Positions 3,891-64,000 of a DNA stretch of 64,000 nucleotides are shown here, piece after piece. Each line of letters begins with the position of its first letter. Position 1 is the stretch's first letter. The notes under the pieces are model-generated. The model saw nothing but the letters and a program-made list of their open reading frames with translations, was not told where the DNA came from and made no database searches. A program made the translations under genes and the position numbers. This DNA comes from Amycolatopsis mongoliensis (lineage in GTDB: Bacteria > Actinomycetota > Actinomycetes > Mycobacteriales > Pseudonocardiaceae): assembly GCF_030285665.1 (NCBI RefSeq), contig NZ_CP127295.1:1860001-1924000 (forward strand), read 5' to 3'.

Positions 3891-3940
3891 TTGTCGTGAG
3901 TGGTAATCAGGGTTCTAACCCGAATTACCACTCACGACAA
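3891..3940. repeat. Palindromic element family A, copy 1
   Basis: A 50-nt palindrome with 24-nt arms (TTGTCGTGAGTGGTAAT... and its complement) around a CT centre, with two mismatches near the middle. It lies just past the 3' end of the minus-strand glutaredoxin gene and upstream of the oxidoreductase start. A perfect copy recurs at 34204-34249. It would form a very stable hairpin, so termination is likely, but conservation between the two loci suggests a dispersed repeat rather than two unrelated terminators. Confidence 0.85.
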
Positions 3941-15661: not shown

Positions 15662-15751
15662 CCTGCCTCGTCACCGAGGGTGCGGAGCAGGGGCGTGCGC
15701 CGAGGGGGACTTGGGTCACGACGCCGGGCTGGGCGAGGCGGCGGCCCGAAC

Positions 15752-15804
15752 GTCGTGAATGACTCATTCACGTCGTCGGACGAGGTGAATGAGTCATTCA
15801 CGAC
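15752..15804. repeat. Palindromic element family B, copy 1
   Basis: Two 20-nt arms (15752-15771, GTCGTGAATGACTCATTCAC, and its exact complement at 15785-15804) around a 13-nt spacer. Each arm also contains a smaller palindrome, GTGAATGA-S-TCATTCAC. It lies just past the 3' end of the Pro-rich membrane protein gene. Related copies are at 24558-24612 and 59590-59640. Confidence 0.88.
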
Positions 15805-15850
15805 ACGCGACCGCGCCGCCGACCCGTTCGCGCCATCAGGCGGGGGGACG

Positions 15851-24439: not shown

Positions 24440-24557
24440 CCCCCTCGTCACCGGGTCCTGATCGGCGGGAACTTCAGCGGGGCGGCTCGAGATCGCGACT
24501 CCCCCCTCCCTCGAGCCGTCCCGCCTGTTCCGCTCACACCCCGCAGCACCGCCCAAA

Positions 24558-24612
24558 TGACGTGAATGACTCATTCACGTCATCGGACGAGGTGAATGAG
24601 TCATTCACGTCA
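24558..24612. repeat. Palindromic element family B, copy 2
   Basis: Perfect 21-nt arms (24558-24578 and 24592-24612) around a 13-nt spacer. The arm core GTGAATGACTCATTCAC is identical to copy 1, and the spacers differ by one base. It lies 24 nt past the 3' end of the DUF4349 gene. Confidence 0.88.
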
Positions 24613-24635
24613 CCCGCAGCCGCACTGGCGCCCGC

Positions 24636-30659: not shown

Positions 30660-31166
30660 ATGGGATCCCGGATCGAGCACCGTGCTGAGTTCTCCGCCGA
30701 CGTCGCCGCGACGTACGCCGCGGTCGCCGGCGAAGGCGCGCTGCGGGCGCGGCTCGAGCAGCTCGGCGGGCACGGCGCCGCGCTGCTGTCGTACGAGGTC
30801 TCCGGGACGGACCTGCGGTACGAGCTGCGGCAGGGGATCAGCGCCGAGAAGCTGCCCCAGGCGGTGCGGACGCTGCACAAGGGCGACCTGCTGGTGACCC
30901 GCACGCAGACCTGGCGCGTGAGCAACGACGGCACCGGCCGGCAGGGTCAGGCGACGGTCGAGGTCGGCGGCGTCCCGGGTGAGATCGCCGCGCGGACGGC
31001 GTTGCTGGCCAACGGCGGCAAGACGGTGCTGCGGATCAGCGGCGAGGTCACGGTCCGGATCCCGCTGTTCGGCGGGAAGCTGGAAAGCGTCATCTCCGAG
31101 CAGGTCACGAAGCTGCTGGAGCGCGAAGCCGAATTCACGGCGAAGTGGCTCACCGAAGCAAACTGA
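30660..31166 (+). CDS. DUF2505 family protein
   Basis: A 168-residue SRPBCC-like protein: SRIEHRAEFSADVAATYAAV at the start, then TQTWRVSNDGTGRQGQATVEVGG and GEVTVRIPLFGGKLESVISEQVTKLL. The divergent murB-DUF2505 arrangement is shared with mycobacteria (Rv0482-Rv0481c). A -10-like TACTGT (30647-30652) ends 7 nt before ATG 30660 and no ribosome site is visible, so the mRNA is probably leaderless. The 3' end overlaps the next gene by 22 nt. Lipid or hydrophobic-ligand binding is typical of the fold; the function is unknown. Confidence 0.87.
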   Translation: MGSRIEHRAEFSADVAATYAAVAGEGALRARLEQLGGHGAALLSYEVSGTDLRYELRQGISAEKLPQAVRTLHKGDLLVTRTQTWRVSNDGTGRQGQATVEVGGVPGEIAARTALLANGGKTVLRISGEVTVRIPLFGGKLESVISEQVTKLLEREAEFTAKWLTEAN

Positions 31167-31939
31167 GCCCGGTCGGCGCGCCGACCCGCGGCACGACCAA
31201 CCCGAACCGCCTCCGCCGGGTCGACCGGTGGATCACGTACGCGCCCGCGACGACCCGGCTGCTGCGCGCGGCGGGCTCGCCGCTGGTCGTCGACCTCGGT
31301 TACGGCGCTTCGCCGGTGACGACCGTCGAGCTGGCGCGGTGGCTACGGCGCGTCCGGCCGGACGTCCGGGTGCTGGGCCTGGAGCTGGATCCTTCTCGCG
31401 TGGCCTTCGCGCAATCCGCGGCGTCGCCGCCGCTGCTGGACTTCCGCCGCGGCGGGTTCGAGCTGGCCGGGACGCGGCCGGTGCTGGTGCGCGCGTTCAA
31501 CGTCCTGCGGCAGTACGCGGAGGACGAGGTCGCGGGCGCGTGGGGGCTGGTGCTGGACTCGATGGCCCCGGGCGGCCTGCTGGTCGAGGGCACGTGCGAC
31601 GAGATCGGCCGGCTGTCGACGTGGGTGCTGGTTTCGGCGGCCGGGCCGGTGTCCCTGACGTTGTCGATGCGGCTGGCGGGGCTCGAGAAGCCGTCGACGA
31701 TCGCCGAGCGGCTGCCGAAGGCGCTGATCCACCGGAACGTCCCGGGCGAGCGGGTGCACGCGTTGCTCTCGTCTCTCGACGCGTGCTGGGCGACGGCCGC
31801 GCCGCACCAGGCGTTCGGGGTGAAGTCGCGCTGGCTGGAGACGATCCGGCTGCTGGTCGCCCGGGGCTGGCCGGTGGCGGACCCGCGGATCCGCCTGGGT
31901 GAGCTGACGGTCCCCTGGTCCGCGGTCGCCCCCGCCTGA
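31145..31939 (+). CDS. Class I SAM-dependent methyltransferase-like protein
   Basis: A 264-residue protein with the SAM-binding segment LVVDLGYGASPVTTVELARWL, then VRVLGLELDPSRV and VRAFNVLRQYAED. The motif I loop is DLGYGASP, a variant of the usual GxGxG. GTG 31145 starts 22 nt inside the DUF2505 gene, so it is probably translated from the same mRNA. Actinobacterial genomes often pair these two. Substrate unknown. It is followed by palindrome C copy 1. Confidence 0.82.
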   Translation: MAHRSKLSPVGAPTRGTTNPNRLRRVDRWITYAPATTRLLRAAGSPLVVDLGYGASPVTTVELARWLRRVRPDVRVLGLELDPSRVAFAQSAASPPLLDFRRGGFELAGTRPVLVRAFNVLRQYAEDEVAGAWGLVLDSMAPGGLLVEGTCDEIGRLSTWVLVSAAGPVSLTLSMRLAGLEKPSTIAERLPKALIHRNVPGERVHALLSSLDACWATAAPHQAFGVKSRWLETIRLLVARGWPVADPRIRLGELTVPWSAVAPA

Positions 31940-31943
31940 CCAC

Positions 31944-32030
31944 AGCGCCCCAATGTGGCGTTCGGTGCGTCAGACGCACCGAACGCCACATTGGGTGCGT
32001 CTGACGCAACCAACGCCACATTGGGGCGCT
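31944..32030. repeat. 87-bp modular palindrome, family C, copy 1
   Basis: Outer arms of 19 nt, AGCGCCCCAATGTGGCGTT (31944-31962) and its exact complement (32012-32030), flank further inverted modules built on GGTGCGTC and GACGCACC and on CCAATGTGGCGTT and its complement. It starts 5 nt after the methyltransferase stop, upstream of the co-directional DedA gene. Copies 2 and 3 are at 40247-40333 and 63038-63124. Confidence 0.9.
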
Positions 32031-32092
32031 TGTTCACCGGGGCACCCCCGCTGCGTCACCCCGAAGTGACCTGCGGTGATCACCATTGAGCC

Positions 32093-32794
32093 GTGGAACT
32101 GCTGGCGCACGTCACCGAGCTGCTGCGCGACGCCCTGGGCTCGCCGTGGCTGTGGGTGCTCGTCTTCGCCGTGTCCGGGTTGGACGCGCTGCTGCCGTTC
32201 ATGCCCAGCGAGACGACCGTCGTGACCGTCGCCGTGCTGCTCGGGCCCGACCCGGCGGACCTCACCCTGCTCGCCGCCGTCGCGGCGGGCGGGGCGTGGG
32301 CGGGCGACTGCCTCGGGTACGCCGTCGGCCGGGCCGCCGGGCCGCACGCGATCGCGCGGCTGCAGCGGGGCGCGGACGGGCAGCGGCGCTACGCATGGGC
32401 GCGCGAGCAGGTGCGGCGCAACGGCGGGTTGCTGATCATCGCCGCGCGCTACCTGCCCGGCGGACGCGTCGCCAGCGCGCTCGCCACCGGCAGCCTCGGC
32501 TATCCCCTGCACCGGTTCGCACCGCTGGACCTCGCCGGCGCGGCGATCTGGGCGGTCTACAGCGTGCTGATCGGCCTCGCCGGCGGAGCCGCCTTCGCCG
32601 ACGAACCGGTCAAGGGCCTCCTGCTGTCCTTCAGCCTCGGACTCGGTCTGGTGGTCGCGATCGAGGCCGGCCGGCGGCTACGGTCGGCCCATGCTGGAAG
32701 CGATCGACATCCACGCCGACGCGCTGAAGCGGGCGGCGCTGACGGCCGGTCCGGCGGCCCGGGTGCCGAACTGTCCGAAGTGGACTGTTCATGA
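32093..32794 (+). CDS. DedA/SNARE-associated family membrane protein
   Basis: A 233-residue integral membrane protein with about five hydrophobic segments. The family sequence LDALLPFMPSETTVVTVAVLLG and RYLPGGRVASALATGSLGYPLHRFAPLDLAGAAIW match the DedA pattern, with the Arg/Gly-rich re-entrant region. DedA proteins act in lipid-carrier recycling and membrane homeostasis. The last ~35 residues run over the next gene (104-nt overlap), and this hydrophilic tail is unlikely to be conserved. GTG 32093 is the start. Confidence 0.87.
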   Translation: MELLAHVTELLRDALGSPWLWVLVFAVSGLDALLPFMPSETTVVTVAVLLGPDPADLTLLAAVAAGGAWAGDCLGYAVGRAAGPHAIARLQRGADGQRRYAWAREQVRRNGGLLIIAARYLPGGRVASALATGSLGYPLHRFAPLDLAGAAIWAVYSVLIGLAGGAAFADEPVKGLLLSFSLGLGLVVAIEAGRRLRSAHAGSDRHPRRRAEAGGADGRSGGPGAELSEVDCS

Positions 32795-33308
32795 CCTGGT
32801 TGCGCACATCGCCTTCGTGCACGGCTTCGCCGTCGGCCTGGCGGTGAACCGCCCGGTGAGGCCGGAGCCGCCCGCGGACTGGGCCGACGTCCTGGGGTGG
32901 TGGGACGGCCAGCGCCTGGCCCTGCGCGAAGCCCTCGCGAGAGACCCGGAATCCCCGGCGTTCTCGCCGTACCCGGGCTTCGCCGTGACGGTCGGCGACT
33001 GGACTCGCCGGATGGCCCACGAGACGGCGATCCACCGCCTCGACGCGGAATCGGCCCTCGACGACGTCCCGCCGACGCGGTTCGACCCCGGCTTCGCCAA
33101 CGACGGCATCGACGAGTTCCTGACCTACCTCACCCCGCGCTTGGGCAAGAAAGCCGACGTCCGTGTCACGACGCCGGAGCGCACCTGGACGTTCGGCGAG
33201 CCGGTCGCCGAGGTCGCCGGCGCCGCCGACGACGTCTACCGCGCGCTGTGGGGCCGTCCGCACGGCGCGTCCGTCACGGGCGACCTCGCACCGCTCGCGG
33301 CGCCCTGA
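32691..33308 (+). CDS. Maleylpyruvate isomerase-family mycothiol-dependent enzyme (DinB-like)
   Basis: A 205-residue protein with the MDMPI N-terminal helix bundle: LEAIDIHADALKRAALTAGP, VPNCPKWTVHDLVAHIAFVHGF (with a metal-ligand His) and RRMAHETAIHRLDAE. The C-terminal domain contains TPERTWTFGEP. Members use mycothiol or bind metal; no substrate is evident. ATG 32691 lies 104 nt inside the dedA reading frame. TACGGT (32679-32684) ends 6 nt before it, which suggests an internal promoter and leaderless mRNA. Confidence 0.85.
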   Translation: MLEAIDIHADALKRAALTAGPAARVPNCPKWTVHDLVAHIAFVHGFAVGLAVNRPVRPEPPADWADVLGWWDGQRLALREALARDPESPAFSPYPGFAVTVGDWTRRMAHETAIHRLDAESALDDVPPTRFDPGFANDGIDEFLTYLTPRLGKKADVRVTTPERTWTFGEPVAEVAGAADDVYRALWGRPHGASVTGDLAPLAAP

Positions 33309-33323
33309 CCAGCGCGAGGGACA

Positions 33324-34199
33324 ATGCTCGGCGTGACCGCTCCCGAACGCCGCTACGTCATCACCTTCGGCTGCCCCGACCGCACCGGCATCATCGCCCG
33401 GATCTCCGGGTTCCTCGCCGAGCACGGCGGCTGGATCGTCGAAGCGGCCTACCACACCGACCCGGACACGGGCTGGTTCTTCACCCGCCAGGTCGTCCGG
33501 GCCGACTCACTGCCGTTCGACGCCGCCGGGCTGCGGGCCCGGTTCGCCGAGGTGGCCGCGGACCTGTCGGCGGACTCGAGCTGGCAGGTCAGCGACACCG
33601 GTGAGCGGCGCCGCGCGGTCGTGCTGGTGTCGAAGGCCGGGCACTGCCTGTACGACCTGCTCGGCCGCGTCGCGTCCGGGGAGCTCGACGTCGACATCGC
33701 CGCGGTGATCGGCAACCACGAGTCGCTGGCCGACATCACCCGCGCGCACGGCATCCCGTTCCACCACGTGCCGTTCCCGGCCGAGGGCAAGGCCGCCGCG
33801 TTCGAAGAGGTCCGCAAGCTGGTCGACGAGCACGACCCGCACGCGGTGGTGCTCGCCCGGTTCATGCAGATCCTGCCCGCGGACCTGTGCCGCGAGTGGG
33901 CCGGCCGGGCGATCAACATCCACCACAGCTTCCTGCCGTCGTTCATCGGCGCGAAGCCGTACCACCAGGCGCACACGCGCGGCGTGAAGCTGGTCGGCGC
34001 GACGTGCCACTACGTGACGGCGGACCTGGACGCGGGCCCGATCATCGACCAGGACGTCATCCGCGTCGACCACGGCGACTCGGTCGAGGACATGGTCCGC
34101 AAGGGCCGGGACATCGAGAAGGTGACACTGGCGCGCGGCCTGCGCTGGCACCTGGAGAACCGGGTCCTGGTGCACGGCAACCGGACCGTGGTGTTCTGA
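33324..34199 (+). CDS. purU: Formyltetrahydrofolate deformylase
   Basis: Hydrolyses 10-formyl-THF to formate and THF, supplying formate for purine synthesis and balancing one-carbon pools. The N-terminal ACT domain is YVITFGCPDRTGIIARISGFLAEH. The formyltransferase-type domain contains AVIGNHESL, VVLARFMQIL, INIHHSFLPSFIGAKPYHQA (catalytic Asn/His region) and GATCHYVTADLDAGPII. The 291-residue length is normal. ATG 33324 follows GAGGG; GTG 33333 is an alternative. Palindrome A copy 2 follows the stop. Confidence 0.95.
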   Translation: MLGVTAPERRYVITFGCPDRTGIIARISGFLAEHGGWIVEAAYHTDPDTGWFFTRQVVRADSLPFDAAGLRARFAEVAADLSADSSWQVSDTGERRRAVVLVSKAGHCLYDLLGRVASGELDVDIAAVIGNHESLADITRAHGIPFHHVPFPAEGKAAAFEEVRKLVDEHDPHAVVLARFMQILPADLCREWAGRAINIHHSFLPSFIGAKPYHQAHTRGVKLVGATCHYVTADLDAGPIIDQDVIRVDHGDSVEDMVRKGRDIEKVTLARGLRWHLENRVLVHGNRTVVF

Positions 34200-34203
34200 C
34201 GCG

Positions 34204-34249
34204 GTCGTGAGTGGTAATTCGGGTTCTAACCCGAATTACCACTCACGAC
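34204..34249. repeat. Palindromic element family A, copy 2
   Basis: A perfect 22-bp-arm palindrome (GTCGTGAGTGGTAATTCGGG..., CT centre, exact complement) filling the gap between the convergent purU and alcohol dehydrogenase genes. It begins 4 nt after one stop and ends 3 nt before the other. It is nearly identical to copy 1 at 3891-3940, 30 kb away. Confidence 0.9.
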
Positions 34250-34252
34250 GGG

Positions 34253-35302
34253 TCACGCGCCGATGGTCGAGGCGTCGATGACGAAGCGGTAGCGCACGTC
34301 GGAGTTCTCGACGCGCTCGTAGGCCTCGTTGACCTCGTCGGCCGAGATGGTCTCGATCTCCGCGCCGATGCCGTGCTCGGCGCAGAAGTCCAGCATCTCC
34401 TGGGTCTCGGCGATGCCGCCGATCATCGACCCGGCCAGCACCTTGTTGCCGCCCAGCAGCGAGAAAGCGTTGTACGACAGCGGTTCGCCGGGCGCGCCGA
34501 CGTTCACCATCGCGCCGCCGACCTTCAGCAGGCCGAGGTAGGCGTCCACCGGCAGCTTGGCCGACACGGTGTTGAGGATGACGTCGAACTTGCCCTTGAG
34601 GACGTCGAACGTCGACTCGTCGCTGGTCGCGTAGTAGTCCGTCGCGCCGAGCTTGAGGCCGTCTTCCTGCTTCTTGAGGCTCTGGCTCAGCACCGTCACC
34701 TCGGCGCCCATGGCAGCGGCGATCTTGACGCCCATGTGCCCGAGCCCGCCGAGGCCGATCACGGCGACCTTCTTGCCCGGCCCGGCGCCCCAGTGGTGCA
34801 GCGGCGAGTAGGTGGTGATGCCCGCGCACAGCAGCGGCGCCGCGATGTCGAGGCTGATGCCCTCGGGGATGCGGCAGACGAAGGCGTCCTTCACGACGAT
34901 CTGGTTGCTGTAGCCGCCGTAGGTGTTCTCGCCGTCGAAGCCGACGCCGTTGTACGTCTGGACGTTGCCCTTGACGCAGAACTGCTCGGTGCCGGCGAGG
35001 CAGTACTCGCACTCACCGCAGGAGTCGACCATGCAGCCGACGCCGACGCGGTCGCCGACCTGGTACTTCGTGACGTCCGAGCCGACCGCCGCCACGACGC
35101 CGGCGATCTCGTGCCCGGGGACCATCGGGAAGATGGCCTGGCCCCAGTCCTCCTTCGCCTGGTGGATGTCGCTGTGGCAGATTCCGGCGTAGGCGATGTC
35201 GATGAGGACGTCGTCCGGACGCAGGTCGCGGCGCTCGATCGTGGTCGGTGCGAGCGGCGCACCCGGCGCCGGGGCGGCGATGGCGTGCGTAGTGGTGCTC
35301 AT
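34253..35302 (-). CDS. Zinc-dependent NAD(P)-dependent alcohol dehydrogenase
   Basis: A 349-residue medium-chain dehydrogenase of the cinnamyl-alcohol-dehydrogenase/YahK type. The catalytic zinc site includes Cys in [10 protein letters not shown] and His/Glu in PGHEIAGVV. The structural zinc cysteines are in [18 protein letters not shown]. The cofactor motif is [21 protein letters not shown]. It reduces aldehydes or oxidises alcohols in the cytosol. ATG 35302 faces the divergent TetR gene across about 100 nt containing two TetR operators, so it is very likely repressed by that regulator and induced by an aldehyde or similar ligand. Confidence 0.94.
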
Positions 35303-35334
35303 GGAACCCTCCAAGTTCAAGTACCGTGGTGTTC

Positions 35335-35374
35335 GTAAGAGGTCTCTTACATCTCTACGTAAGAGGGGTCTTAC
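35335..35374. promoter_or_regulatory. Twin TetR-type operators between adh and tetR
   Basis: GTAAGAG-N2-CTCTTAC (35335-35350) is followed by GTAAGAG-N2-GTCTTAC (35359-35374). These are two near-identical 16-bp inverted repeats with centres 24 nt apart, between the divergently read genes. Spacing and form are typical of TetR-family control of both genes. Confidence 0.85.
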
Positions 35375-35404
35375 ATATTTCGAACGGGAGATGTGATCCA
35401 GGTC

Positions 35405-36004
35405 ATGGGCGGGAAGTACCACCACGGCGACCTCCGGGCGGAGCTCGTGCGCGTCTCCCTCGACCTGATCGCCGAGCAGGGCCTGGAAGGCTTCTCGGTC
35501 GCGAAGGTCGCGAAGCTGGCGAACGTCAGTCCCGGCGCGCCGTACCGGCACTTCGCGACCCGGGAAAGCCTGCTGGCCGAGGTCGCCTGCCACATCGCGT
35601 GCCAGCTGGCCGACCGCGTCGCCGAGGCGGCAGCCGAGCACGCGGACCCCGCGGACGCCCTGGCCGCCGGTGCGGGCGCGTACACGCGGTACCTGATCGA
35701 ACGACGGGCCGGGATGAACGTCATCTACGCCGACGGCCTCCACGGCCCGGAGCACGTCGAGCTGATGGAGCAGACCCGCCGCCTGACGGACGAGTTCCTG
35801 ATGCGCTGCCTGGCGGTCGCCCCCGACCCGGCGACGGCGCTGGAACTGATGGAGCAGCTGTTCACCCAGGCCCACGGCTACGGCACGTTCCAGCTCGACG
35901 GCGTCTTCGTGAAGCACGGCTATTCGGTGGATCTCGTGGTCCGGAAGTCGACCGAGGCCGCGCGGATCGCGATCGCGGGCCGGATTGTCGGTGGTCCGCG
36001 CTAG
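35405..36004 (+). CDS. TetR/AcrR-family transcriptional regulator
   Basis: A 199-residue repressor. The HTH is [20 protein letters not shown], then [21 protein letters not shown]. The ligand domain is helical ([21 protein letters not shown]...). ATG 35405 was chosen; GTG 35393 in the same frame is an alternative and lies closer to GGGAG. Twin operators directly upstream support autoregulation and control of the divergent alcohol dehydrogenase. The following gene starts 9 nt after its stop but may have its own leaderless start. Confidence 0.9.
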
Positions 36005-36013
36005 CTTGTCGGC

Positions 36014-36640
36014 ATGGGGATCAGCGAGACGCACATCGACACGCACGAGGCCCTGCGCGAGCTGCTGGGCGAACCGAAGCCGAGGACCCGGCAGAAGGTG
36101 CTCGCCCACATCGACGAGCACGCGCGGACCCTGATCGCGCACTCGCCGTTCGTGCTGCTGGCGACGTCGTCGCCGGACGGCAGCTGCGACGTCTCACCCC
36201 GCGGCGACCCGGCGGGGTCGGTCCTCGTGCTCGACGACCGGACGCTGGTGCTGGCCGACCGCCCGGGCAACAAGCTGATCGACAGCTTCCGCAACATCGT
36301 CGACAACCCGCACGCGGGGCTGTTGTTCCTGGTACCGGGGATGAACGAGACGCTGCGGGTGAACGGCCGCGCCCGGCTGGTGTCGGACGCGCCGTTCTTC
36401 GATTCGCTGGTGGTGCGGGGCAAGCGGCCGAAGCTCGCGGTGGTCATCGAGGTCGAAGAGCTGTACATGCACTGCGCGAAGGCGTTCCTGCGGTCGTCGC
36501 TGTGGGACCCGTCGACGTGGCCGGAGCGCTCGACGCTGCCGACCCTGGGCACGATCCTGCGCGACCAGCTGTCCCTGTCCACGTCGGCGGAAGAACTCGA
36601 CGAGGACCTCAACGAACGGTCGCTGACCCAGCAATACTGA
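36014..36640 (+). CDS. Pyridoxamine 5'-phosphate oxidase-family flavoprotein
   Basis: A 208-residue FMN/F420-binding split-barrel protein: [65 protein letters not shown] and [19 protein letters not shown] are hallmarks of the MSMEG_1061-type PPOX family. It may reduce a small-molecule substrate or bind cofactor. TAGCTT (36002-36007) ends 6 nt before ATG 36014, so it may be leaderless; the TetR gene ends just upstream. Confidence 0.88.
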
Positions 36641-36644
36641 ACTC

Positions 36645-37277
36645 ATGCTCTGCGTCTTCGACGTCAACGAAACCCTGCTCGACCTCGCCGCCATGGACGA
36701 CCTCGTCGGCGGCCCCGAGCTGCGGCGCGAGTGGTTCGGGCTGGCCATCCACACCGTGCTGACCGTGACGGCGACCGGCGGTTACCGCGACTTCGCGGGC
36801 ATCGCGGGTGAAGCCGCGGCCGAGATCGCCGCCCGGCACGGCCGGGACGTGGACCTCGCGAAGATCGGCGAAGGGCTCCGCTCGCTCCCGGCCCACCCCG
36901 ACGCCGAAGCGGGCCTCACCAAGCTGCGCGAAGCCGGCCACGACGTCGTCGCGCTGACGAATTCGCCGCTCACGACGGCCGAGGCTCAGCTGCAGAACTC
37001 CGGTCTCGCCCAGCGCTTCGACCGGATCTTCTCGGCCGAGCAGGCCGGCCGGCTCAAGCCCGCGCCCGAGCCGTACCGGCAGGTCCTCAACGCCTACGGC
37101 GTCGAGCCCCGGCACGCGGTGATGGTCGCCGCGCACGACTGGGACATCGCGGGCGCGCAGGCGGCCGGGCTGCGGACGGCGTTGCTCGCCCGCCCCGGCG
37201 TCCGCCCGCTGCCCGGCTCACCCGAGCCGACGTACACGATTTCGGCGTTGACCGAACTGGCCGGACTGCTGGGTTAG
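36645..37277 (+). CDS. Haloacid dehalogenase type II-like HAD hydrolase
   Basis: A 210-residue HAD protein: motif I CVFDVNETLLDL, motif II VVALTNSPLTTAEAQL, motif III Lys in AGRLKPAPEPYRQV, motif IV VMVAAHDWDIAGAQAAGL. This order matches L-2-haloacid dehalogenases and phosphatase relatives; the first Asp and the Asn-Glu pair in motif I favour dehalogenase-like enzymes. It starts 4 nt after the PPOX stop and is probably co-transcribed. Its 3' end overlaps the convergent oxidoreductase by 4 nt. Confidence 0.88.
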   Translation: MLCVFDVNETLLDLAAMDDLVGGPELRREWFGLAIHTVLTVTATGGYRDFAGIAGEAAAEIAARHGRDVDLAKIGEGLRSLPAHPDAEAGLTKLREAGHDVVALTNSPLTTAEAQLQNSGLAQRFDRIFSAEQAGRLKPAPEPYRQVLNAYGVEPRHAVMVAAHDWDIAGAQAAGLRTALLARPGVRPLPGSPEPTYTISALTELAGLLG

Positions 37278-38284
37278 TCCGCGATCCGGACCAGCATCTT
37301 GCCGGTGTTGGCCCCGGAGAGCAGGCCGAGGAAGGCGTCCGGCGCGTTGCGGATGCCGTCGACGAACGTCTCGGAGTACTTGATCTTCCCCGACTTCACC
37401 AGCGGGGCGACCTCGCTGACGAACTGCTGCTGCAGACCCCAGTGGTCGAGCACGAGCAGGCCGCGGATGGTGATCCGCTTGGCGATGATCTGCGCGAGGT
37501 TGCGCGGCGCCGGCGTGGGCTCGGTGGCGTTGTACTGGGAAATCATGCCGCAGACGGCGATCCGGCCGTGGACGGTGATCGCGTCGATCGCGGCTTCGAG
37601 GTGTTCGCCGCCGACGTTGTCGAAGTAGACGTCGATGCCTTCCGGCGCCGCCTTGTGCAGCTGCTCGGCGACCGGACCGTCCTTGTAGTTGAAGGCGGCG
37701 TCGAAGCCGAGGTCGTCGATCAGGTACCGGACCTTCTCCGCCGACCCGGCCGAGCCGATGACGCGCTTGGCGCCCTTCAGCTTCGCGAGCTGCCCGACGA
37801 GCGAGCCGACGGCACCGGCCGCGCCCGAGACGAACACCGTGTCGCCCGGCTTGAACTCGGCCGACACCAGCAGGCCCGCGTACGCGGTGAGGCCCGGCAT
37901 GCCGAGCACGCCGAGGTAGGTCGAGAGCGGCGCGGCTTCGGCGTCGACCTTGACGAACCGCTTGGCGTCGAGCACGGCGTGGGTGCGCCAGCCGGCCTGG
38001 TGCAGCACGTGGTCACCGGGCTTCACACCGTCCACATGGGACTCGACGACCTCGCCGACCGCCCCGCCGGACATGACCTCGCCGACCTCGAAGGGCGGCG
38101 CGTACGACTTCACGTCGCGCATGCGCCCGCGCATGGCCGGGTCGACGCTCATGACCAGGTTGCGCACCAGGATCTGCCCCTCGCCGGGAGCGGGGATCTC
38201 GGTGTCGACGACCTCGAAGTTGTCGTGCGTCGGAACACCTTCCGGGCGCGAAGCCAACCGGATTTCCGTCGCCTGTGCGTTCAC
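37274..38284 (-). CDS. NADP-dependent medium-chain oxidoreductase (leukotriene B4 12-HD-like)
   Basis: A 336-residue zinc-free MDR enzyme of the prostaglandin/alkenal reductase group: MSVDPAMRGRM, GDHVLHQAGWRTHAV, GMPGLTAYAGLL, VFVSGAAGAVGSLVGQLAKLKGAKRVIGSAGS and YFDNVGGEHLEAAI are signature segments. It reduces alpha,beta-unsaturated carbonyls with NADPH. GTG 38284 was chosen because GAGGAG lies 7 nt upstream. It is convergent with the HAD gene, 4-nt overlap. Confidence 0.93.
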   Translation of the reverse strand: MNAQATEIRLASRPEGVPTHDNFEVVDTEIPAPGEGQILVRNLVMSVDPAMRGRMRDVKSYAPPFEVGEVMSGGAVGEVVESHVDGVKPGDHVLHQAGWRTHAVLDAKRFVKVDAEAAPLSTYLGVLGMPGLTAYAGLLVSAEFKPGDTVFVSGAAGAVGSLVGQLAKLKGAKRVIGSAGSAEKVRYLIDDLGFDAAFNYKDGPVAEQLHKAAPEGIDVYFDNVGGEHLEAAIDAITVHGRIAVCGMISQYNATEPTPAPRNLAQIIAKRITIRGLLVLDHWGLQQQFVSEVAPLVKSGKIKYSETFVDGIRNAPDAFLGLLSGANTGKMLVRIAD

Positions 38285-38435
38285 CGTCGAACTCCTCAAG
38301 TCTCTCGAAGCGGGGCAAGCGCCCCGGATTCCACCGGGTAGAACCGGCTAACCGGGGCGCGCATTCCGATTGTGACGCGCTACACCCAACCTTCTTCCCC
38401 ACCGCCACCCTCAACGGAGGCGCTTCGCGCCACTG

Positions 38436-38870
38436 TCACACTATTTCGGCGAGCTTCCCGAGCACGCCGTCGTAGATCTTCTTGAGCCCACCGGGCGCGA
38501 ACGTCTTCTCGAAGAAGCCGCCGATGCCGCCGGCGCCGTCCCACGACGTCTCGATCCGGACCAGGCTCTTCTCACCGGCTTCGGAGACCGTCCAGGTGGT
38601 GACCATGCTGGAGTTCGCGTCGGTCTCGACCAGGGTGCCGGGCTTCGGCTCGCTGACCGTGGCCTTGACGTCGCGCACGCGCTTGGACGTCGCCTGCAGC
38701 TTCCAGCCGGCCTTGGTCCCGGCGCCGACGCCGCCCTCGGTGACCTCGTAGTCGCGGTAGTGCTCGGTGAGCAGCTTCGGGCGCGTTTCGGCGTAGTCGG
38801 CGACGAGCGCGCGGACCTTGTCGGCCGGGGCGTCGATGGTGCGCTCCGCGGTGGCCGTGACCTTTCCCAT
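38436..38870 (-). CDS. SRPBCC (START-like) family protein
   Basis: A 144-residue polyketide-cyclase/START-like protein: MGKVTATAERTIDAPADKVR, VADYAETRPKLLTEHYRDYE, and a C-terminal helix FEKTFAPGGLKKIYDGVLGKL. It would bind a hydrophobic ligand. ATG 38870 follows AAGGAGCGAA. It is divergent from the MarR gene starting 85 nt away, so MarR may control it. No catalytic motif is visible. Confidence 0.85.
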   Translation of the reverse strand: MGKVTATAERTIDAPADKVRALVADYAETRPKLLTEHYRDYEVTEGGVGAGTKAGWKLQATSKRVRDVKATVSEPKPGTLVETDANSSMVTTWTVSEAGEKSLVRIETSWDGAGGIGGFFEKTFAPGGLKKIYDGVLGKLAEIV

Positions 38871-38955
38871 TTCGCTCCTTCTCCTTCGGACGTCGATTGT
38901 GGTCCACGATTCCACCACCGGCCGGGAGGCTGCTCACCGCGTTAGGCTGACGCGC

Positions 38956-39438
38956 ATGAGTTCCACGACGGACGCCGTCGGCCGCCGGCGCGCGACCGTG
39001 GCGCTCAAGGAGGCGCTGCGAGACCTGCGCAACCAGCTCTCGCTGCTGAACCACCAGGTCAGCGCGCACCTGGCGCTCAAAGACGTCGACCTGGACTGCC
39101 TGGAGTTGATCGGCCGGCACGGGCCGTTGAGCCCGAGCGCGCTGGCCCGCCGCGCCGGTCTGCACCCGGCGACGATGACGGGCATCCTCGACCGGCTGCA
39201 GAAGGGCGGCTGGATCGTCCGCGAGCGCGACCCCGAGGCGGCCGACCGCCGCGCGGTCGCGGTGCGCGCGGTCCGCGGCCGCAACGCCGAGCTGTTCCGG
39301 CTGTATGCGGGGATGAACACGGCGATGGACGAGCTCTGCGCCGGCTACAGCGAGGAGGAGCTGGCGCTGATCGCCGGCTTCCTGCGGCGTGCGACGTCGG
39401 CGGGCAACACCGCGACCGGTGATCTGGCTAACGGCTGA
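38956..39438 (+). CDS. MarR-family transcriptional regulator
   Basis: A 160-residue winged-helix dimer: LEALRDLRNQ-type N-terminal helices, then LDCLELIGRHGPLSPSALAR, RAGLHPATMTGILDRLQKGGWI and the wing RERDPEAADRRAVAV. TAGGCT (38943-38948) ends 7 nt before ATG 38956, suggesting leaderless mRNA. It is divergent from the SRPBCC gene. Ligand unknown. Confidence 0.9.
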   Translation: MSSTTDAVGRRRATVALKEALRDLRNQLSLLNHQVSAHLALKDVDLDCLELIGRHGPLSPSALARRAGLHPATMTGILDRLQKGGWIVRERDPEAADRRAVAVRAVRGRNAELFRLYAGMNTAMDELCAGYSEEELALIAGFLRRATSAGNTATGDLANG

Positions 39439-39466
39439 CCAGCGGTTTTTGTGCTGTACTCCACGT

Positions 39467-40246
39467 ATGTGGCAGTCGGGCGAAGCTTACGAGGCCTACA
39501 TCGGACGGTGGAGCCGCCGGATCGCGGAGACGTTCGTCCGGCAGCTCGACGCCCCAGCCAGCCGGCGCTGGCTCGACGTGGGCTGCGGCACGGGCGCGCT
39601 GACGTCGGCGGTCCTGACGGCGGCGGACCCGGCGGAAGTCGTCGGAGTCGACCCGTCCGGGGGATTCCTGAAGACGGCGCGCGCCGGCGTGACCGATCCG
39701 CGGGCGTCGTTCACGCTCGCCGATGCCCGTGAGCTCCCCTTCCCGGACGACCACTTCGACGTCACCGTGTCCGGGCTGGTCCTGAACTTCGTGCCCGACC
39801 CGGCGAAGGCCGCGGCGGAGATCGCGCGGGTGACGGCCGCCGGCGGCCTGGCGGCGGCGTACCTCTGGGACCTCGCGGAGGGCATGGAGCTGATCCGGCG
39901 GTTCTGGGACGCGGCGGCCGAGCTGGACCCGGTGCGGGTCGCGGACCTAGACGAAGGCCGCCGGTTCTCGCTGTGCCGCCCGGAGCCGTTCGGCCGGCTG
40001 TGGACGGAGGCGGGCCTGACCGGCGTGTCGGTCGGCGAGATCAAGATCCCGACCGTGTTCTCGGGTTTCGACGACTACTGGCAGCCGTTCCTCGGCGCCC
40101 AGGGCCCGGCCCCGGCGTACCTGGCGACGCTGCCCGAGGCCCGCCGCGACCAGATCCGCGAACTCCTGCGCAGCCGCCTGCCGACGAACCCGGACGGCTC
40201 GATCCCGCTGTCGGCCCGCGCCTGGGTGGTCCGGGGCACGGCGTAA
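39467..40246 (+). CDS. Class I SAM-dependent methyltransferase (UbiE-like)
   Basis: A 259-residue methyltransferase_11/25-type enzyme: YIGRWSRRIAETFV, SAM motif I WLDVGCGTGALTSAVL, VVGVDPSGGFL, ADARELPFPDDHFDVTVSGLVLNFVPDP and ARVTAAGGLAAAYLWD. The N-terminal part resembles ubiquinone/menaquinone-type methyltransferases, but the substrate is unknown. ATG 39467. Palindrome C copy 2 begins immediately at its stop, before a convergent gene. Confidence 0.9.
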   Translation: MWQSGEAYEAYIGRWSRRIAETFVRQLDAPASRRWLDVGCGTGALTSAVLTAADPAEVVGVDPSGGFLKTARAGVTDPRASFTLADARELPFPDDHFDVTVSGLVLNFVPDPAKAAAEIARVTAAGGLAAAYLWDLAEGMELIRRFWDAAAELDPVRVADLDEGRRFSLCRPEPFGRLWTEAGLTGVSVGEIKIPTVFSGFDDYWQPFLGAQGPAPAYLATLPEARRDQIRELLRSRLPTNPDGSIPLSARAWVVRGTA

Positions 40247-40333
40247 AGCGCCCCAATGTGGCGTTGGTTGCGTCAGACGCACCCAATGTGGCGTTCGGTG
40301 CGTCTGACGCACCGAACGCCGCCTTGGGGCGCT
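40247..40333. repeat. 87-bp modular palindrome, family C, copy 2
   Basis: This copy is the reverse complement of copy 1 (31944-32030) with two mismatches in the right outer arm. It sits between the convergent methyltransferase and ABC substrate-binding genes; its first base falls directly after the TAA at 40246, and its last is 4 nt before the other stop. Confidence 0.9.
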
Positions 40334-40337
40334 GGGG

Positions 40338-41261
40338 TCAGAGACCGGCCTGGGACAGCCAGTCCTTCGCGACGTCGGCGGCCTTCTCGCCGTCCGAGTC
40401 GACGCGCTTGTTCAGGTCGCGCATGACGTCCGTCGTCAGCTTCGCGCTCACCGCGTTCACCGCGTTCGCGAAGTCGGCGCCGCGCTCGTCGAGCACCTTC
40501 TTGTTCACCGCCGGCACGACGTTCTCGGTCGGGACGATGTTCAGGTCGTCCTTGAGCACCGTGTAGTTCGAGTCGCCGGTCAGCGGGCTGACCGAGTCGA
40601 CCGGGATCACCGTGACGGCGCCCGACTTCAGCTGCTCGACCCGCGGCCCGGCTTCCTGGATGGTCTGGAACGTCGCGTTCGTCAGCTTGTAGACGTCCTT
40701 GAAGCCCTGGAAGCACGGCAGGCGCTTTTCGCATTCCGGCGGCCCCGCCATGACGACCTTGTCCAGCTTCTTCAGGTCGCTGATCGACGCGATGCCCTTT
40801 TCCTTGGCCAGGTCGGACTTGATGATGTAGGTGTTCTTGTCCTCCGCCGCGGCGAAGTTCAGCAGGCCGACGCCGCTGGGCTCGAACAGCTTGGCCAGCT
40901 GCTCGTGCTCCTCCTGCGCGGTCTTGCCGGCCTCCTTGCCGAAGCCGGTGGTGATCGCCGCGCCCTGGTACTCCGGGATGAACTGCAGCTCACCGGACTT
41001 CAGCGAGGGGTAGATCAGCTCCCGCGAGCCCAGGTTCAGCTTCCGCGTCACCGGGTAGCCCTTGGCCTCCAGCGCCTGCGCGTAGATCTCGGCGAGGATC
41101 TGGCTGTCGGTGAAGTTGAAGGACGCGACGACGATCGGCGCCCCACCCTTGCTCTGCGCGGCGGGCTTGTCACCGCTGTCGCTGCCACCCCCACAGGCGG
41201 CCAAACCGAGCGTCGCCGCGACGGCCACCGCCACCACGGACGCGTTCCGGAACCAGCGCAC
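40338..41261 (-). CDS. Glycine betaine/choline-type ABC transporter substrate-binding lipoprotein
   Basis: A 307-residue OpuAC/ProX-type binding protein. The signal peptide VRWFRNASVVAVAVAATLGLA ends in the lipobox LAAC. The mature part has VVASFNFTDSQILAEIYAQALEAKG and YPSLKSGELQFIPEYQGAAITTG, the OsmF/OpuCC-like ligand fold, and TVIPVDSVSPLTGDSNYTVLKDD. It would capture betaine, choline or a related quaternary amine outside the membrane. GTG 41261. It is divergent from two permease genes of the same system. No ATPase gene lies nearby. Confidence 0.9.
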   Translation of the reverse strand: MRWFRNASVVAVAVAATLGLAACGGGSDSGDKPAAQSKGGAPIVVASFNFTDSQILAEIYAQALEAKGYPVTRKLNLGSRELIYPSLKSGELQFIPEYQGAAITTGFGKEAGKTAQEEHEQLAKLFEPSGVGLLNFAAAEDKNTYIIKSDLAKEKGIASISDLKKLDKVVMAGPPECEKRLPCFQGFKDVYKLTNATFQTIQEAGPRVEQLKSGAVTVIPVDSVSPLTGDSNYTVLKDDLNIVPTENVVPAVNKKVLDERGADFANAVNAVSAKLTTDVMRDLNKRVDSDGEKAADVAKDWLSQAGL

Positions 41262-41400
41262 GAATCCCCACTCCCTCGTCACTCGAACAGACGAAAGGAC
41301 CCTAGCCCTGACCTCCGACAAGTATCCACATGTTGGGAGAAAGCCCCTCAAATTCCCAGACTTCGGAATGATTCCCCACCAAACGGGGTAGGGTCGACCG

Positions 41401-42099
41401 GTGCACGTGACCGCGGTGACCCCGCTGGCCGCCGACAGCGGACCCCCGATCTTCCAGTGGAAGTGGGTGGACCGCAACGCGGACGACATCGTCCAGCGCC
41501 TCGGCGAACACATCTCGCTCACCGCCGCCGCACTCGGCGTCGGGCTCGTCGTCTCGATCGCGCTCGCGGTGCTGGCGCTGCGGTACCGCTGGTCGTACCC
41601 GGTCATCCTGGGCACGGCCGGTGCGCTCTACGTGATCCCGAGCCTCGGCGCGTTCGCCGTGCTGGTGCCGTTCTTCGGGCTGACGTTCCTCACCGCGATG
41701 ATCCCGCTCGCGACCTACACGCTGCTGATCCTGGTCCGCAACATCGTCACGGGCGTCGACCAGGTGCCGAACGAGGTCCGCGAGGCCGCGGTCGGCATGG
41801 GCTACACGCGCGGCAGGCTGCTCTGGCAGATCGAGCTGCCGCTCGCGCTGCCGGTGGTGATCGCCGGGCTGCGCGTCGCCGCGGTGACGACGATCGGCCT
41901 GGTCACGGTGACGTCGATGCTCGGCCTCGGCGGCCTGGGCTACTTCATCCGCGCGGGCATCCAGACGGCGACGCCCAACCCGACGGAGATCATCGTCGGC
42001 GTGGTGCTGTCGGTGGTCCTGGCGGTGGTCGTCGACCTGGTTCTCTGGCTCAGCGAGCGCCTGCTGGCGCCGTGGTCGCGGAAGGTGGGGGCGCGATGA
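41401..42099 (+). CDS. Betaine/osmoprotectant ABC transporter permease 1
   Basis: A 232-residue BPD_transp_1 protein with about five to six membrane spans and the EAA loop EVREAAVGMGYTRGRLLWQIELPLALPVVIAGLR that contacts an ATPase. It resembles OpuCB/OpuCD-type subunits. GTG 41401 starts 139 nt from the divergent binding-protein gene. Its stop overlaps the second permease by 4 nt. Confidence 0.92.
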   Translation: MHVTAVTPLAADSGPPIFQWKWVDRNADDIVQRLGEHISLTAAALGVGLVVSIALAVLALRYRWSYPVILGTAGALYVIPSLGAFAVLVPFFGLTFLTAMIPLATYTLLILVRNIVTGVDQVPNEVREAAVGMGYTRGRLLWQIELPLALPVVIAGLRVAAVTTIGLVTVTSMLGLGGLGYFIRAGIQTATPNPTEIIVGVVLSVVLAVVVDLVLWLSERLLAPWSRKVGAR

Positions 42100-59593: not shown

Positions 59594-59640
59594 ATGACTC
59601 ATTCACCTCGTCCGGCGACATGAATGACTCATTCCTGTCA
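59590..59640. repeat. Palindromic element family B, copy 3
   Basis: GTGAATGACTCATTCAC (59590-59606) and a partly degraded second unit TGAATGACTCATTC (59621-59634) lie between the convergent YczE-like and Clp-N genes. The second unit is in direct rather than strict inverted order and ends differently, so this is a divergent copy. It contains the YczE stop codon. Confidence 0.75.
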
Positions 59641-59680
59641 TCGGACCAGCCGCCACGACCCGAACCTCGGACGCGCGGCG

Positions 59681-61329: not shown

Positions 61330-62160
61330 ATGGGGACGGAACAGGGGAAGCGCACGAGACCGTGGCGGCTCGTGGCGCTGGGCGCGATCGGCTGGGGGCT
61401 GTTCACGGCCGTGGTGCTGCACATCATCAGTTCGCACAACCCGGTGTACGACACGCTGTCGAGCTACACCGTGACCGACCGGGGCGAAGGCATGCTCGCC
61501 GCGAGCGTGTTGTCGCTGGCCATCGGCTCGCTGGCCGTGCTCGGCGCGCTGCACGCCGCCGGCGTGCCGCTGTCGCGGACGACCCGGCTGCTGCTCGCAC
61601 TCTGGTCGCTCGGGCTGGCCGCGGCGGCGGTATTCCCGGCGAGCTACCCGGCGGCGCCGGACCCGGTCAGCGGCGAGATCCACCTCTACGCGTGCCTGGT
61701 CGCGTTCCTGAGTCTGCCCGGCGCGGCGATCTCGCTGCTGGAACCGTTGCGGGGACGGCCCGAACGGGCCGCCGTCGTGCGGGCGATCCGGCTGAGCGCG
61801 GGCGCGTTCGGGCTGTTCGCGGTCAGCTTCGTGCTGGTGCGGTTGAGCGAGGCGGAAATCGGGCCGTTCCCGGAGCTCTCGGACGCGTTCCCGATCGGCG
61901 TCATGCAGCGGCTGCTGCTGCTCGCCGACGTCGTCCTGCTCGGCACGCTGCTGCGGGTCGCGACCCGGCTGGAGTCAGCCTTCGACGGCCGCCGCGAATT
62001 CGGGCGCGTAGCCGTACAGGCCGGGCATCCCGCCGGTGTGCAGGAACACCACGTGGTCGTCGGGGGCGAAGTGACCGGCCCATTCGACCAGCGCGGCGGC
62101 CACCTTGCCGGTGTAAACCGGATCGAGCACAACTCCCTCGGTGCGGCCGAAAAGCCGTAG
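61330..62160 (+). CDS. DUF998 membrane protein with run-on C-terminus
   Basis: A 276-residue frame. Residues 1-215 are a DUF998-type membrane protein with six hydrophobic segments (VALGAIGWGLFTAVVLHIISS, SYTVTDRG, MLAASVLSLAIGSLAVLGAL, ...). The ORF then runs 186 nt further, antisense to the 3' end of the desulfhydrase gene, with a hydrophilic Gly/His-rich tail. A stop may have been lost, or the tail may be spurious. ATG 61330 follows GGAGGC. The upper gene body is well supported; the tail is not. Confidence 0.75.
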   Translation: MGTEQGKRTRPWRLVALGAIGWGLFTAVVLHIISSHNPVYDTLSSYTVTDRGEGMLAASVLSLAIGSLAVLGALHAAGVPLSRTTRLLLALWSLGLAAAAVFPASYPAAPDPVSGEIHLYACLVAFLSLPGAAISLLEPLRGRPERAAVVRAIRLSAGAFGLFAVSFVLVRLSEAEIGPFPELSDAFPIGVMQRLLLLADVVLLGTLLRVATRLESAFDGRREFGRVAVQAGHPAGVQEHHVVVGGEVTGPFDQRGGHLAGVNRIEHNSLGAAEKP

Positions 62161-63003
62161 CGCGTGCCAGACCGCGTCGGTCGGGATGCCGTAGCCGGGA
62201 CCGAGGGTCGAGTCGCTCATCTTCGTGTGCGCGAGCGACGGCGGCTCGACGCCGAGCAGCTTCGCCGCGCCGTCGACGAGGTCGCGGAGGTTCTCGGTGG
62301 CCTCGTCGAGCGGGTGGCTGACGCAGGCGATGCCGACGCCGAGGTTCCCGAGGAGCGCGGTGCCCAGCACCACGCCGGCCGCGGTGCCACCGCTGGCGTG
62401 CGGGACGACGAGGTGGGCGCGTTCGACGCCGCGTTCTTCGAGCTGCTTCGCGAGTTCGCAGGTGGCACGGACGTAACCGAGGGCGCCCAGGTCGTTGGAG
62501 CCGCCGACCGGGATCGTGGCGACCTTCCGGCCCTCGGCGGTGGCTTCGGCGACGAGCCGGTCGTAGGTGCGGCCGGTCTCCTCGCCGTCGGCGCAGACGT
62601 GGACGGTCGCGCCGAAGAGCTTGTCGAGCGGGATGTTGCCGCCGCGTTCGTACGCTTCGCCGTCGCGCGGGACCTTCGCGGTGAGGACGAGTTCGCAGCG
62701 CAGCCCGAGCTTCGCGCAGGCGGCGGCGGTCTGGCGGCCGTGGTTGGTCTGGAGCGCGCCGAACGTGATCACGGTGTCCGCGCCGGCTTCCTTCGCGGCG
62801 CCGAGGTGGTATTCGAGCTTGCGGAGCTTGTTGCCGCCGGCGCCGAGCGGGTGGACGTCGTCGCGCTTCAGCCAGAGGTTCCGCAGACCGAGGGCTTCGC
62901 CGAGCCGGGGCGCTTCCTGCAGCGGCGTGGGCCAGCCGCCCAGGTCGACGCGGGGGATCGCGGCGAGTGCGGCGTCGGGGAATCCGGCGAAGTCGAACGT
63001 CAT
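61975..63003 (-). CDS. D-cysteine desulfhydrase/1-aminocyclopropane-1-carboxylate deaminase-like PLP enzyme
   Basis: A 342-residue fold-type II PLP enzyme: WPTPLQEAPRLGEALG, LWLKRDDVHPLGAGGNKLRKLEYHLGAA (PLP Lys in GGNK), ALQTNHGRQTAAACAKLG, VPHASGGTAAGVVLGTALLG and FLHTGGMPGLYGYAPEF. These are signatures of the D-cysteine desulfhydrase/ACC deaminase group; the exact substrate (D-Cys, ACC, D-Ser) is not decided by the sequence. ATG 63003. Its 3' end overlaps the DUF998 frame by 186 nt. Confidence 0.9.
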   Translation of the reverse strand: MTFDFAGFPDAALAAIPRVDLGGWPTPLQEAPRLGEALGLRNLWLKRDDVHPLGAGGNKLRKLEYHLGAAKEAGADTVITFGALQTNHGRQTAAACAKLGLRCELVLTAKVPRDGEAYERGGNIPLDKLFGATVHVCADGEETGRTYDRLVAEATAEGRKVATIPVGGSNDLGALGYVRATCELAKQLEERGVERAHLVVPHASGGTAAGVVLGTALLGNLGVGIACVSHPLDEATENLRDLVDGAAKLLGVEPPSLAHTKMSDSTLGPGYGIPTDAVWHALRLFGRTEGVVLDPVYTGKVAAALVEWAGHFAPDDHVVFLHTGGMPGLYGYAPEFAAAVEG

Positions 63004-63037: not shown

Positions 63038-63124
63038 AGCGCCCCAATGTGGCGTTCGGTGCGTCTGACGCACCCAATGTGGCGTTCGGTGCGTCAGACG
63101 CAACCAACGCCACATTGGGGCGTT
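63038..63124. repeat. 87-bp modular palindrome, family C, copy 3
   Basis: The outer arms (AGCGCCCCAATGTGGCGTT and complement) match copy 1, but the central module is inverted relative to it: copy 1 has CAGACGCACCGAACG... in the middle, copy 3 has CTGACGCACCCAATG.... Unlike copies 1 and 2, it lies between divergent genes, the desulfhydrase and amidase starts. Confidence 0.88.
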
Positions 63125-63194: not shown

Positions 63195-64000
63195 ATGACA
63201 GCCATGAGCCTGGACTTCACCGGTCTCACCGCGCAGGCCGCGCAGCTCGCCGCCGGCGAGGTCACCTCCGCCGAGCTCACCGCGACGGCGCTCGGGCGCG
63301 CGCTCGCGAGTCAGCCCACGCTCAACGCCTTCCGGCACCTGCGCGACGACGCGGCTCTCGCCGAAGCAGCCGAAGCGGACCAGCGGCTCGAGGCCGGGGA
63401 CCGCAAACCCCTGCTCGGCGTCCCCGTCGCCATCAAGGACGACGTCGACCTCACCGGCCTTCCCACGTCCTTCGGCTGCGCCGGTGAGTTCCCGGTGGCC
63501 ACCACCGACGCGCCCGCCGTCGCGCTGCTGCGCGAGGCCGGTGCTGTCATCATCGGCAAGACCAACACCCCCGAGCTGGGCCAATGGCCGTTCACCGAGG
63601 GCCCGGCCTTCGGCGTGACACGCAATCCGTGGCACGCCGGTCACACCCCCGGGGGTTCTTCGGGCGGGAGCGCGGCCGCGGTGGCGTCGGGGGTCATCGC
63701 GGCCGCGCTCGGTTCCGACGGCGCCGGCTCGGTGCGCATCCCGGCCGCGTGGACCGGGCTGGTCGGCATCAAGACCCAGCGCGGCCGGATCCCGACCGAC
63801 GGCGAGCTCTTCCACGGCCTGACCGTGCTCGGGCCGCTCGCCCGGACCGTCGAGGACGCCGCGCTGCTGCTGGACGTCACCGCCGCCACCGGCACCGCGT
63901 TCCGGACCGCCGCGACGCGCGAACCCGGCCGGCTGCGGATCGGGCTGTCGACCAAGATCCCGTTCACCGCGACCAAGACCCGGCTCGACCCGGTCGTCGA
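63195..64000 (+). CDS. Amidase signature family protein, 3' end outside window
   Basis: An amidase of the Ser-cisSer-Lys type, probably glutamyl-tRNA amidotransferase A-like or a free-amide hydrolase. The Lys is in PVAIKDDVDLTGLPTSFGC, the cis-Ser in HTPGGSSGGSAAAVASG, and the Ser nucleophile in GSDGAGSVRIPAAWTGLVGIK. About 268 residues are inside the window; the gene continues beyond base 64000. ATG 63195 is used; ATG 63204 (MSLDFTG) is an alternative. Without a GatB partner nearby, a stand-alone amidase is more likely than GatA. Confidence 0.87.
   Translation, partial: MTAMSLDFTGLTAQAAQLAAGEVTSAELTATALGRALASQPTLNAFRHLRDDAALAEAAEADQRLEAGDRKPLLGVPVAIKDDVDLTGLPTSFGCAGEFPVATTDAPAVALLREAGAVIIGKTNTPELGQWPFTEGPAFGVTRNPWHAGHTPGGSSGGSAAAVASGVIAAALGSDGAGSVRIPAAWTGLVGIKTQRGRIPTDGELFHGLTVLGPLARTVEDAALLLDVTAATGTAFRTAATREPGRLRIGLSTKIPFTATKTRLDPVV

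Follow-up and report, generated by a model that had tools for sequence, protein, structure and literature searches.

REP sequences have reportedly been discussed as evolving through gene conversion, in the title of a 1988 paper by Higgins. REP, BIME and REPIN sequences are short, many-copy intergenic palindromes that form mosaics in both orientations, fold into hairpins and are species-specific, according to two sources (PMC2817692, PMC3116915), and a third adds that REP and REPIN carry a GTAG- or CGTC-type tag at one palindrome end (PMC3733652). Rickettsia palindromic elements (RPE), about 150 bp long, also occur in frame within proteins, and nearly half of them lie in genes (PMC10969869). 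Template switching between inverted arms inverts spacers of 2-8 bases at single sites in related genomes (PMC8604942 and PMC8794818), and PMC8794818 includes loop inversions in bacterial rRNA, one of them actinobacterial. For Amycolatopsis, PMC6749651 gives a satellite count for A. mediterranei, and the words Amycolatopsis and Streptomyces are absent from the main text of PMC12306157 and PMC3733652. In this study, we describe a palindromic repeat of Amycolatopsis, family C, whose central module occurs in both orientations and for which no published description was found in the open-licence literature.

An 87-bp element built from one arm

The window is the whole stretch analysed, 64,000 bp long (positions 1860001-1924000 of a 10,811,244-bp Amycolatopsis genome), and contains three copies of the element (Table 1). 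Its design is one arm used three times: the outer two are convergent, the middle arm takes either orientation, and they are joined by two 13-bp palindromes. In copy 1, the central module holds the same 13-base arm as both outer arms. An earlier note on this DNA had placed copy 1 at 31944-32030 (87 bp) and had described copy 2 as copy 1 reversed and copy 3 as keeping the outer arms around an inverted centre. The coordinates proved exact, and the reverse complement of copy 1 differs from copy 2 at 2/87 positions. Copies 1 and 3 differ at 10/87 positions, of which 3 are left once the 17-bp centre (31979-31995) is inverted, so the description of copy 3 is right with three substitutions added: one at the centre of each 3-bp spacer (A to T in one, T to A in the other) and a third close to the end.

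Table 1. Parts of family C copies and adjacent genes, numbered from the first base of the window.
Feature	Position	Strand	Remarks
Copy 1, whole 87-bp element (arms > < <)	31944..32030	+	starts 4 bases past the upstream stop codon
Copy 1, left outer arm AGCGCCCCAATGTGGCGTT	31944..31962	+	from alignment
Copy 1, left junction CGG ('c' side)	31963..31965	+	from alignment
Copy 1, small palindrome TGCGT-nnn-ACGCA, variable spacer CAG	31966..31978	+	from alignment
Copy 1, central 17-bp module CCGAACGCCACATTGGG	31979..31995	-	reverse orientation; the part inverted between isomers
Copy 1, small palindrome TGCGT-nnn-ACGCA, variable spacer CTG	31996..32008	+	from alignment
Copy 1, right junction ACC ('g' side)	32009..32011	+	GGT on the opposite strand
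Copy 1, right outer arm AACGCCACATTGGGGCGCT	32012..32030	-	left outer arm, inverted
Copy 2	40247..40333	-	reverse of copy 1 with 2 mismatches; flanked by convergent genes
Copy 3	63038..63124	+	outer arms of copy 1, inverted centre; between divergent genes
Gene without Pfam match, upstream of copy 1	31145..31939	+	4 bases separate its stop codon from the element
VTT-domain protein gene, downstream of copy 1	32093..32794	+	ORF and Pfam; missed by the custom gene caller
Methyltransferase-domain gene	39467..40246	+	stop codon abuts copy 2; start from the custom caller
OpuAC substrate-binding protein gene	40338..41615	-	ends 4 bases from copy 2
PALP (pyridoxal-phosphate) enzyme gene	61975..63003	-	start 34 bp left of copy 3
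Amidase gene	63195..63998	+	start 70 bp right of copy 3; continues to the window edge

Alignment of 78 three-arm runs showed 90-100% identity in the columns of the 13-base arm and 79-99% in the AGCGC/GCGCT ends, the element ends reading AGCGCC. The two nnn spacers and the junction triplets are the variable parts. In 183 of the 200 copies that could be classified, from the window genome and its relatives, one side carries the outer junction GGT or GGG ('g') and the opposite side CGG ('c'); symmetric outer junctions occur in 17/200, against about half expected by chance.

Copy number, folding and distribution

A 28-base half-module pattern with at most three mismatches matched the window genome 284 times (132 + 152) versus 0 for the reversed control. 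The 89 stretches fetched were placed from the matches listed, and genome counts of elements are accordingly lower bounds. These stretches contain at least 97 arm clusters, with fragments and one spurious cluster counted. Three arms are present in 61/97 clusters at three or fewer mismatches per arm, the rest holding one to ten arms, and the three-arm spacing is exact in 78 runs. Three loci (L079, L084 and L114) are arrays in which arm pairs and their flanking sequence repeat with a period of 82-84 bp, with 8 to 9 arms in total. At two unrelated loci, family C elements appear by eye to carry the same foreign insert between the arms (GGCGCGAAGCGCC... in L210, on the opposite strand in L256).

The predicted RNA fold of copy 1 has an energy of -77.1 kcal/mol (z = -11.9, 200 shuffles), and copies 1-3 fold at -72 to -77 kcal/mol with the centre in either orientation; for the two-arm fragment L080, the fold is no better than that of its shuffles. 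If transcribed, a standard copy would form a hairpin of about 87 nt with the third arm at its tip. The idea that matched pairing lengthens this hairpin into the flanks was rejected, the flank bases pairing no more often than those of re-dealt flanks. The stretch searched against Rfam (31000-41000) matched no family.

Exact half-modules were found in 27 of 80 genomes of the genus, with 1 to 391 matches each, and 52/80 match copy 1 with an E value of 0.001 or lower. The window genome has 207 exact half-module matches; G039, which among the compared relatives is closest as judged from one 1.3-kb gene pair (92.2%), has 0 exact matches and two weaker ones. A family-wide sample yielded matches in 6/297 genomes and 2/46 genera. 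Among genomes of named species, 80 of the 120 exact half-module matches were listed, and these fall in Amycolatopsis (79) and Qaidamihabitans (1).

Placement next to stop codons

Genomic context was assigned with a custom codon-score gene caller, a non-standard tool that overlooked the VTT gene next to copy 1, and with it 91/97 loci were called intergenic: 50 lie between convergent, 33 between tandem and 8 between divergent genes, and 6 lie in a predicted gene, including e70, a spurious match of two arms with three mismatches each. The stretches contain 484 pairs of neighbouring genes, of which 280 are tandem, 103 divergent and 101 convergent, and the contexts differ with a chi-square p of 5e-18 after subtraction of the element loci, an approximate value as two gaps hold two clusters each. 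The element faces a stop codon at 83 of the 91 intergenic loci, at a median distance of 7 nt and within 20 nt at 60/91. Family C is mostly placed at the 3' ends of genes. The earlier note had argued from the divergent genes around copy 3 that the element is not simply a terminator, which is correct for copy 3 (PALP on the minus and amidase on the plus strand) but copy 3 belongs to a minority of the family, divergent loci being 8/97 versus 50/97 convergent. A simple scan of the copy-1 site (31700-32300) gave 0 terminator-like sites with a T-run.

The five remaining in-gene copies (87 bp, one of 57 bp) are found within synthase genes of polyketide or fatty-acid type, following KS domains or preceding ACP domains, and all share the frame RPNVA...TLGR. 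At L131, L143, L144 and L145, the in-frame synthase copies contribute a repeated peptide, for example RPNVALGASDAPNATLGASDAPNATLGR.

Occupants of the same slots in relatives

For each of the three sites, 30 loci were fetched out of the 80 genomes and classed by eye from the sequence. The occupants differ between relatives. At the copy-1 site, the 30 loci comprise five full family C elements, two stubs, three TGAATGACTCATTCA-type or related palindromes, 15 empty sites and five others. The empty site typically reads stop codon TGA followed by ACGTTCA, which forms the perfect palindrome TGAACGTTCA. The copy-2 site was scored at 26 loci, as four of the 30 gave no row; 18 have no hairpin, their stop codons overlapping, abutting or standing a few bases apart, six have an ordinary GC hairpin, G019 has a GTCGTGAGTG-type palindrome, and the window genome has family C. 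The copy-3 site is filled at four of 30 loci, reads AGCG at the same place at eight, holds several hundred bases of other sequence at 11 and is otherwise composed at seven. Three of the AGCG sites (G039, G041 and G047) resemble internal deletions, and the other five represent either a deletion or the original site.

Other palindrome families are also present. Paired TGAATGAsTCATTCA units 30 bp apart make up a second family in the window (15744-15809, 24551-24616 and 59579-59644; six unit matches versus 0 expected), and in G038, G008 and G075 the copy-1 slot is taken up by this family or by related forms. The third family, GTCGTGAGTGGTAA...TTACCACTCACGAC, has two window copies that are 96% alike (3893-3938 and 34204-34249), and a similar form occupies the copy-2 slot in G019. 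At L389 of G069, the orthologue of element e45 at L104, GGCACTTTC/GAAAGTGCC hairpins stand where the window genome has family C.

Isomers at orthologous loci

Both central orientations are common. Measured against the outer junctions, 35 of the 66 copies of the window genome found with a strict pattern carry the centre in one direction and 25 in the opposite one, six being unscorable; the corresponding counts are 27 and 38 in G069 and 21 and 22 in named relatives. The set of other loci contains 15 of one isomer and 0 of the other, and is biased because many were found with copy 1 as the query. The earlier note had named two outcomes as contrary to its reading, one fixed arrangement of all copies and an absence of copies elsewhere. 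Neither was observed.

Comparison of flanks among 203 distinct elements gave 65 orthologous pairs at 34 loci. Pairs with flank identity of 99% or more were removed as the same element fetched twice, and the synthase-gene loci and their matches (L143-L145, L380-L383, L243, L155 and L276) were excluded from the orthologue and spacer tests, the synthase modules being paralogous. The pairs, which are not independent where they share one locus, divide into 18 with the same isomer, 12 with a centre-only flip, 13 with whole inversion, 11 with an outer-arm swap and 11 with unclassable arms. The comparison of strains for inversion isomers that the earlier note suggested was run here between species, and at the 30 informative loci the isomer differs at 21 and agrees at nine, with a centre-only flip at nine loci. 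Isomer agreement was 5/6 pairs at flank identities of at least 92.4% and 4/12 at 90.5-92.4%; at lower identities all four relations are mixed.

The clearest pair is L320 of G069 and L279 of G030, where an 83-base core is identical except for the inverted 17-bp centre and the flanks are 89.9% alike. At the copy-3 site, the centre is forward in the window genome and G069 and reversed between the same outer arms in G078 / A. vastitatis (L191), while G030 has a different subfamily with swapped junctions. The flipping of an inner inverted repeat by recombination or repair, proposed in the earlier note, is supported in part, in that isomers are general among the copies of the window genome and at orthologous loci. 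Its implication of a flip in place fares less well, as the spacers at orthologous loci are no likelier to be alike than those of random copies.

Spacers and exchange between copies

In the spacer-match test, which counts CCC and CCA as equal, orthologous spacers showed no greater similarity than did spacers of random same-isomer copies. Spacers agreed in 11/36 same-isomer pairs (9.9 expected), in 5/24 centre-flip pairs (4.9 expected) and, after swapping, in 9/26 whole-inversion pairs (6.8 expected), none of which is significant. Outer-swap pairs came nearest to an excess (9/22 versus 5.4 expected, p 0.06). This makes overwriting between copies a serious alternative to a flip in place.

Spacer spectra vary from species to species. 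The spacer CCC/GGG accounts for 53/132 spacers in the window genome, 0/138 in G069, 0/104 at named loci and 1/32 at other loci, and at 21 orthologous pairs for 16/42 in the window genome versus 0/42 in G069. That it is private to the window genome was ruled out by its occurrence in G016, G048 and, once, an element of another relative. Among the matches listed, G016 and G048 also show CCC/GGG and G010 mostly TCA/TGA. The commonest haplotype in G069 is CCA/CTG. An association links spacer and central orientation (permutation p 0.012 in the window genome, 0/2000 permutations in G069 and 0.001 in named relatives), which would follow if spacers travel with some of the flips, and also if a few haplotypes are copied. 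A test of whether spacer haplotypes travel with the flip gave no consistent signal (p 0.04 in G069, with both flip types mixed, 0.78 in the window genome, 0.56 in named relatives and 0.12 overall).

Discussion

We propose that family C is a dispersed non-coding palindromic repeat that serves as a gene-end hairpin and is shuffled by recombination between inverted arms; taken as a whole, this best explanation has in our judgement an even chance of being correct. In gene-end slots the element would most likely act as a 3'-end hairpin that ends transcription or stabilizes mRNA and is interchangeable with ordinary hairpins. A pure 3'-end role leaves the eight divergent and five in-gene copies unexplained. 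The same arm faces both ways inside each copy and from copy to copy, so that template switching during replication, or ectopic repair, may mispair arms and return the inside inverted. The central flip is probably neutral, or cheap, because both orientations fold about equally well into the same long hairpin. Copies are proposed to be overwritten, lost and regained, the slot content being scrambled at about 88-92% flank identity. Other observations also run against this explanation. Orthologous spacers resemble those of random copies even in same-isomer pairs, copy 1 has no T-run in the simple scan, and L080 folds like its shuffles. Template switching should moreover homogenise the outer arms, yet 183/200 scorable copies keep unlike junctions. 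The persistence of these junctions would point to conservative inversion, to exchange of whole insides or to selection against perfect symmetry.

A few ancient inversion forms could instead have been dealt among slots by ectopic gene conversion or by loss and re-insertion, with no flip in place. We consider this possible but doubtful. Orthologous spacers like those of random copies, spacer spectra that differ between species even at shared sites and the mixing of orthologous relations below 92.4% flank identity are all consistent with such exchange, as are spacers tied to central orientation, which a few copied haplotypes would yield. However, the closest pairs mostly retain their isomer (5/6), and L320 and L279 differ by the 17-bp centre alone over the 83-base core, for which a single flip in place is the simpler account. 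Chance overwriting of this pair by a matching copy is conceivable because CCA/CTG is the commonest haplotype in G069.

The patchy copy number, with 207 exact half-modules in the window genome versus 0 in G039, would also suit a non-autonomous mobile element whose putative transposase targets gene ends or hairpins, the isomers being independent insertions in either direction; the empty copy-1 site, a perfect palindrome (TGAACGTTCA), and the five in-frame copies in synthase genes agree with this. Such an element nevertheless seems unlikely to us. A search for the RAYT-type Y1 transposase PF01797, covering the Y1/RAYT type only, gave 0/80 genus genomes, the window genome included (positive control 5/14). 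Direct repeats of at least 3 bases, sought for one choice of ends (AGCG/CGCT), reveal no clear target duplications (6/64 in the window genome versus 2.3 expected; 0/62 in G069 versus 2.0), and remnants at the copy-1 and copy-3 sites suggest loss besides gain. Another account is a site-specific switch, in which a putative recombinase acting at TGCGTnnnACGCA flips the centre and alters expression of the neighbouring genes. The inverted centre does lie exactly between two TGCGTnnnACGCA palindromes and both forms are about equally common, but the spacers, where a crossover would probably fall, are variable both inside single elements and from one element to another, the fold is hardly altered by the flip, and a 17-bp segment would be too small to move a promoter or gene. 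We regard this switch as very improbable.

Beyond the explanation by inverted-arm recombination, a broader idea can be put forward, albeit tentatively. Several unrelated palindrome families may be interchangeable gene-end cassettes that compete for stop-codon slots, and in family C host recombination without a dedicated transposase might both invert modules and copy cassettes, so that occupant and isomer are re-dealt by about 10% divergence of the neighbouring genes. The exchange of slot contents at one stop codon (nothing, an ordinary hairpin or a member of any of several palindrome families) lets the spread of gene-end hairpins as mobile sequence be tested. The isomer state is a ready marker of small inverted-repeat recombination at dozens of loci per genome, where the literature found covers single sites. 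Family C also bears on how palindromic repeats multiply without a RAYT transposase.

Comparison with known systems

Intrinsic terminators resemble family C in being hairpins a few bases past stop codons, often between convergent genes, and relatives have GC hairpins in the copy-2 slot; the position after stop codons is seen at 60/91 loci within 20 nt. In contrast, copy 1, the copy scanned, has no T-run, and family C is longer and consists of near-identical repeats throughout the genome. Family C has inverted ends, as a MITE of a DDE transposon would, but membership in that class was not supported, the one choice of element ends examined showing no clear target-site duplications. RPE are similar in behaviour, as palindromic repeats that also lie in frame within proteins, but in family C such insertions are limited to 5/97 loci, all in one shared frame. 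Template-switch inversions described at single sites involve shorter spacers, whereas family C inverts a 17-bp module and is dispersed over many loci.

Like REP, BIME and REPIN sequences, family C is a many-copy intergenic palindrome, species-specific, that forms hairpins and combines units of both orientations. It consists of high-copy extragenic palindromes (284 half-modules, 91/97 loci intergenic), and copies 1-3 fold into hairpins. Membership in the RAYT-associated REP/REPIN class was rejected, no PF01797 having been found in the 80 genomes to provide a cognate RAYT. Family C further differs from these systems in its fixed three-arm 87-bp design, in the odd central arm that flips and in its placement near stop codons. 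Undescribed in the literature searched, it is best read as a REP/BIME-like family, and thus of a known kind, with an unusual and well-supported isomerism.
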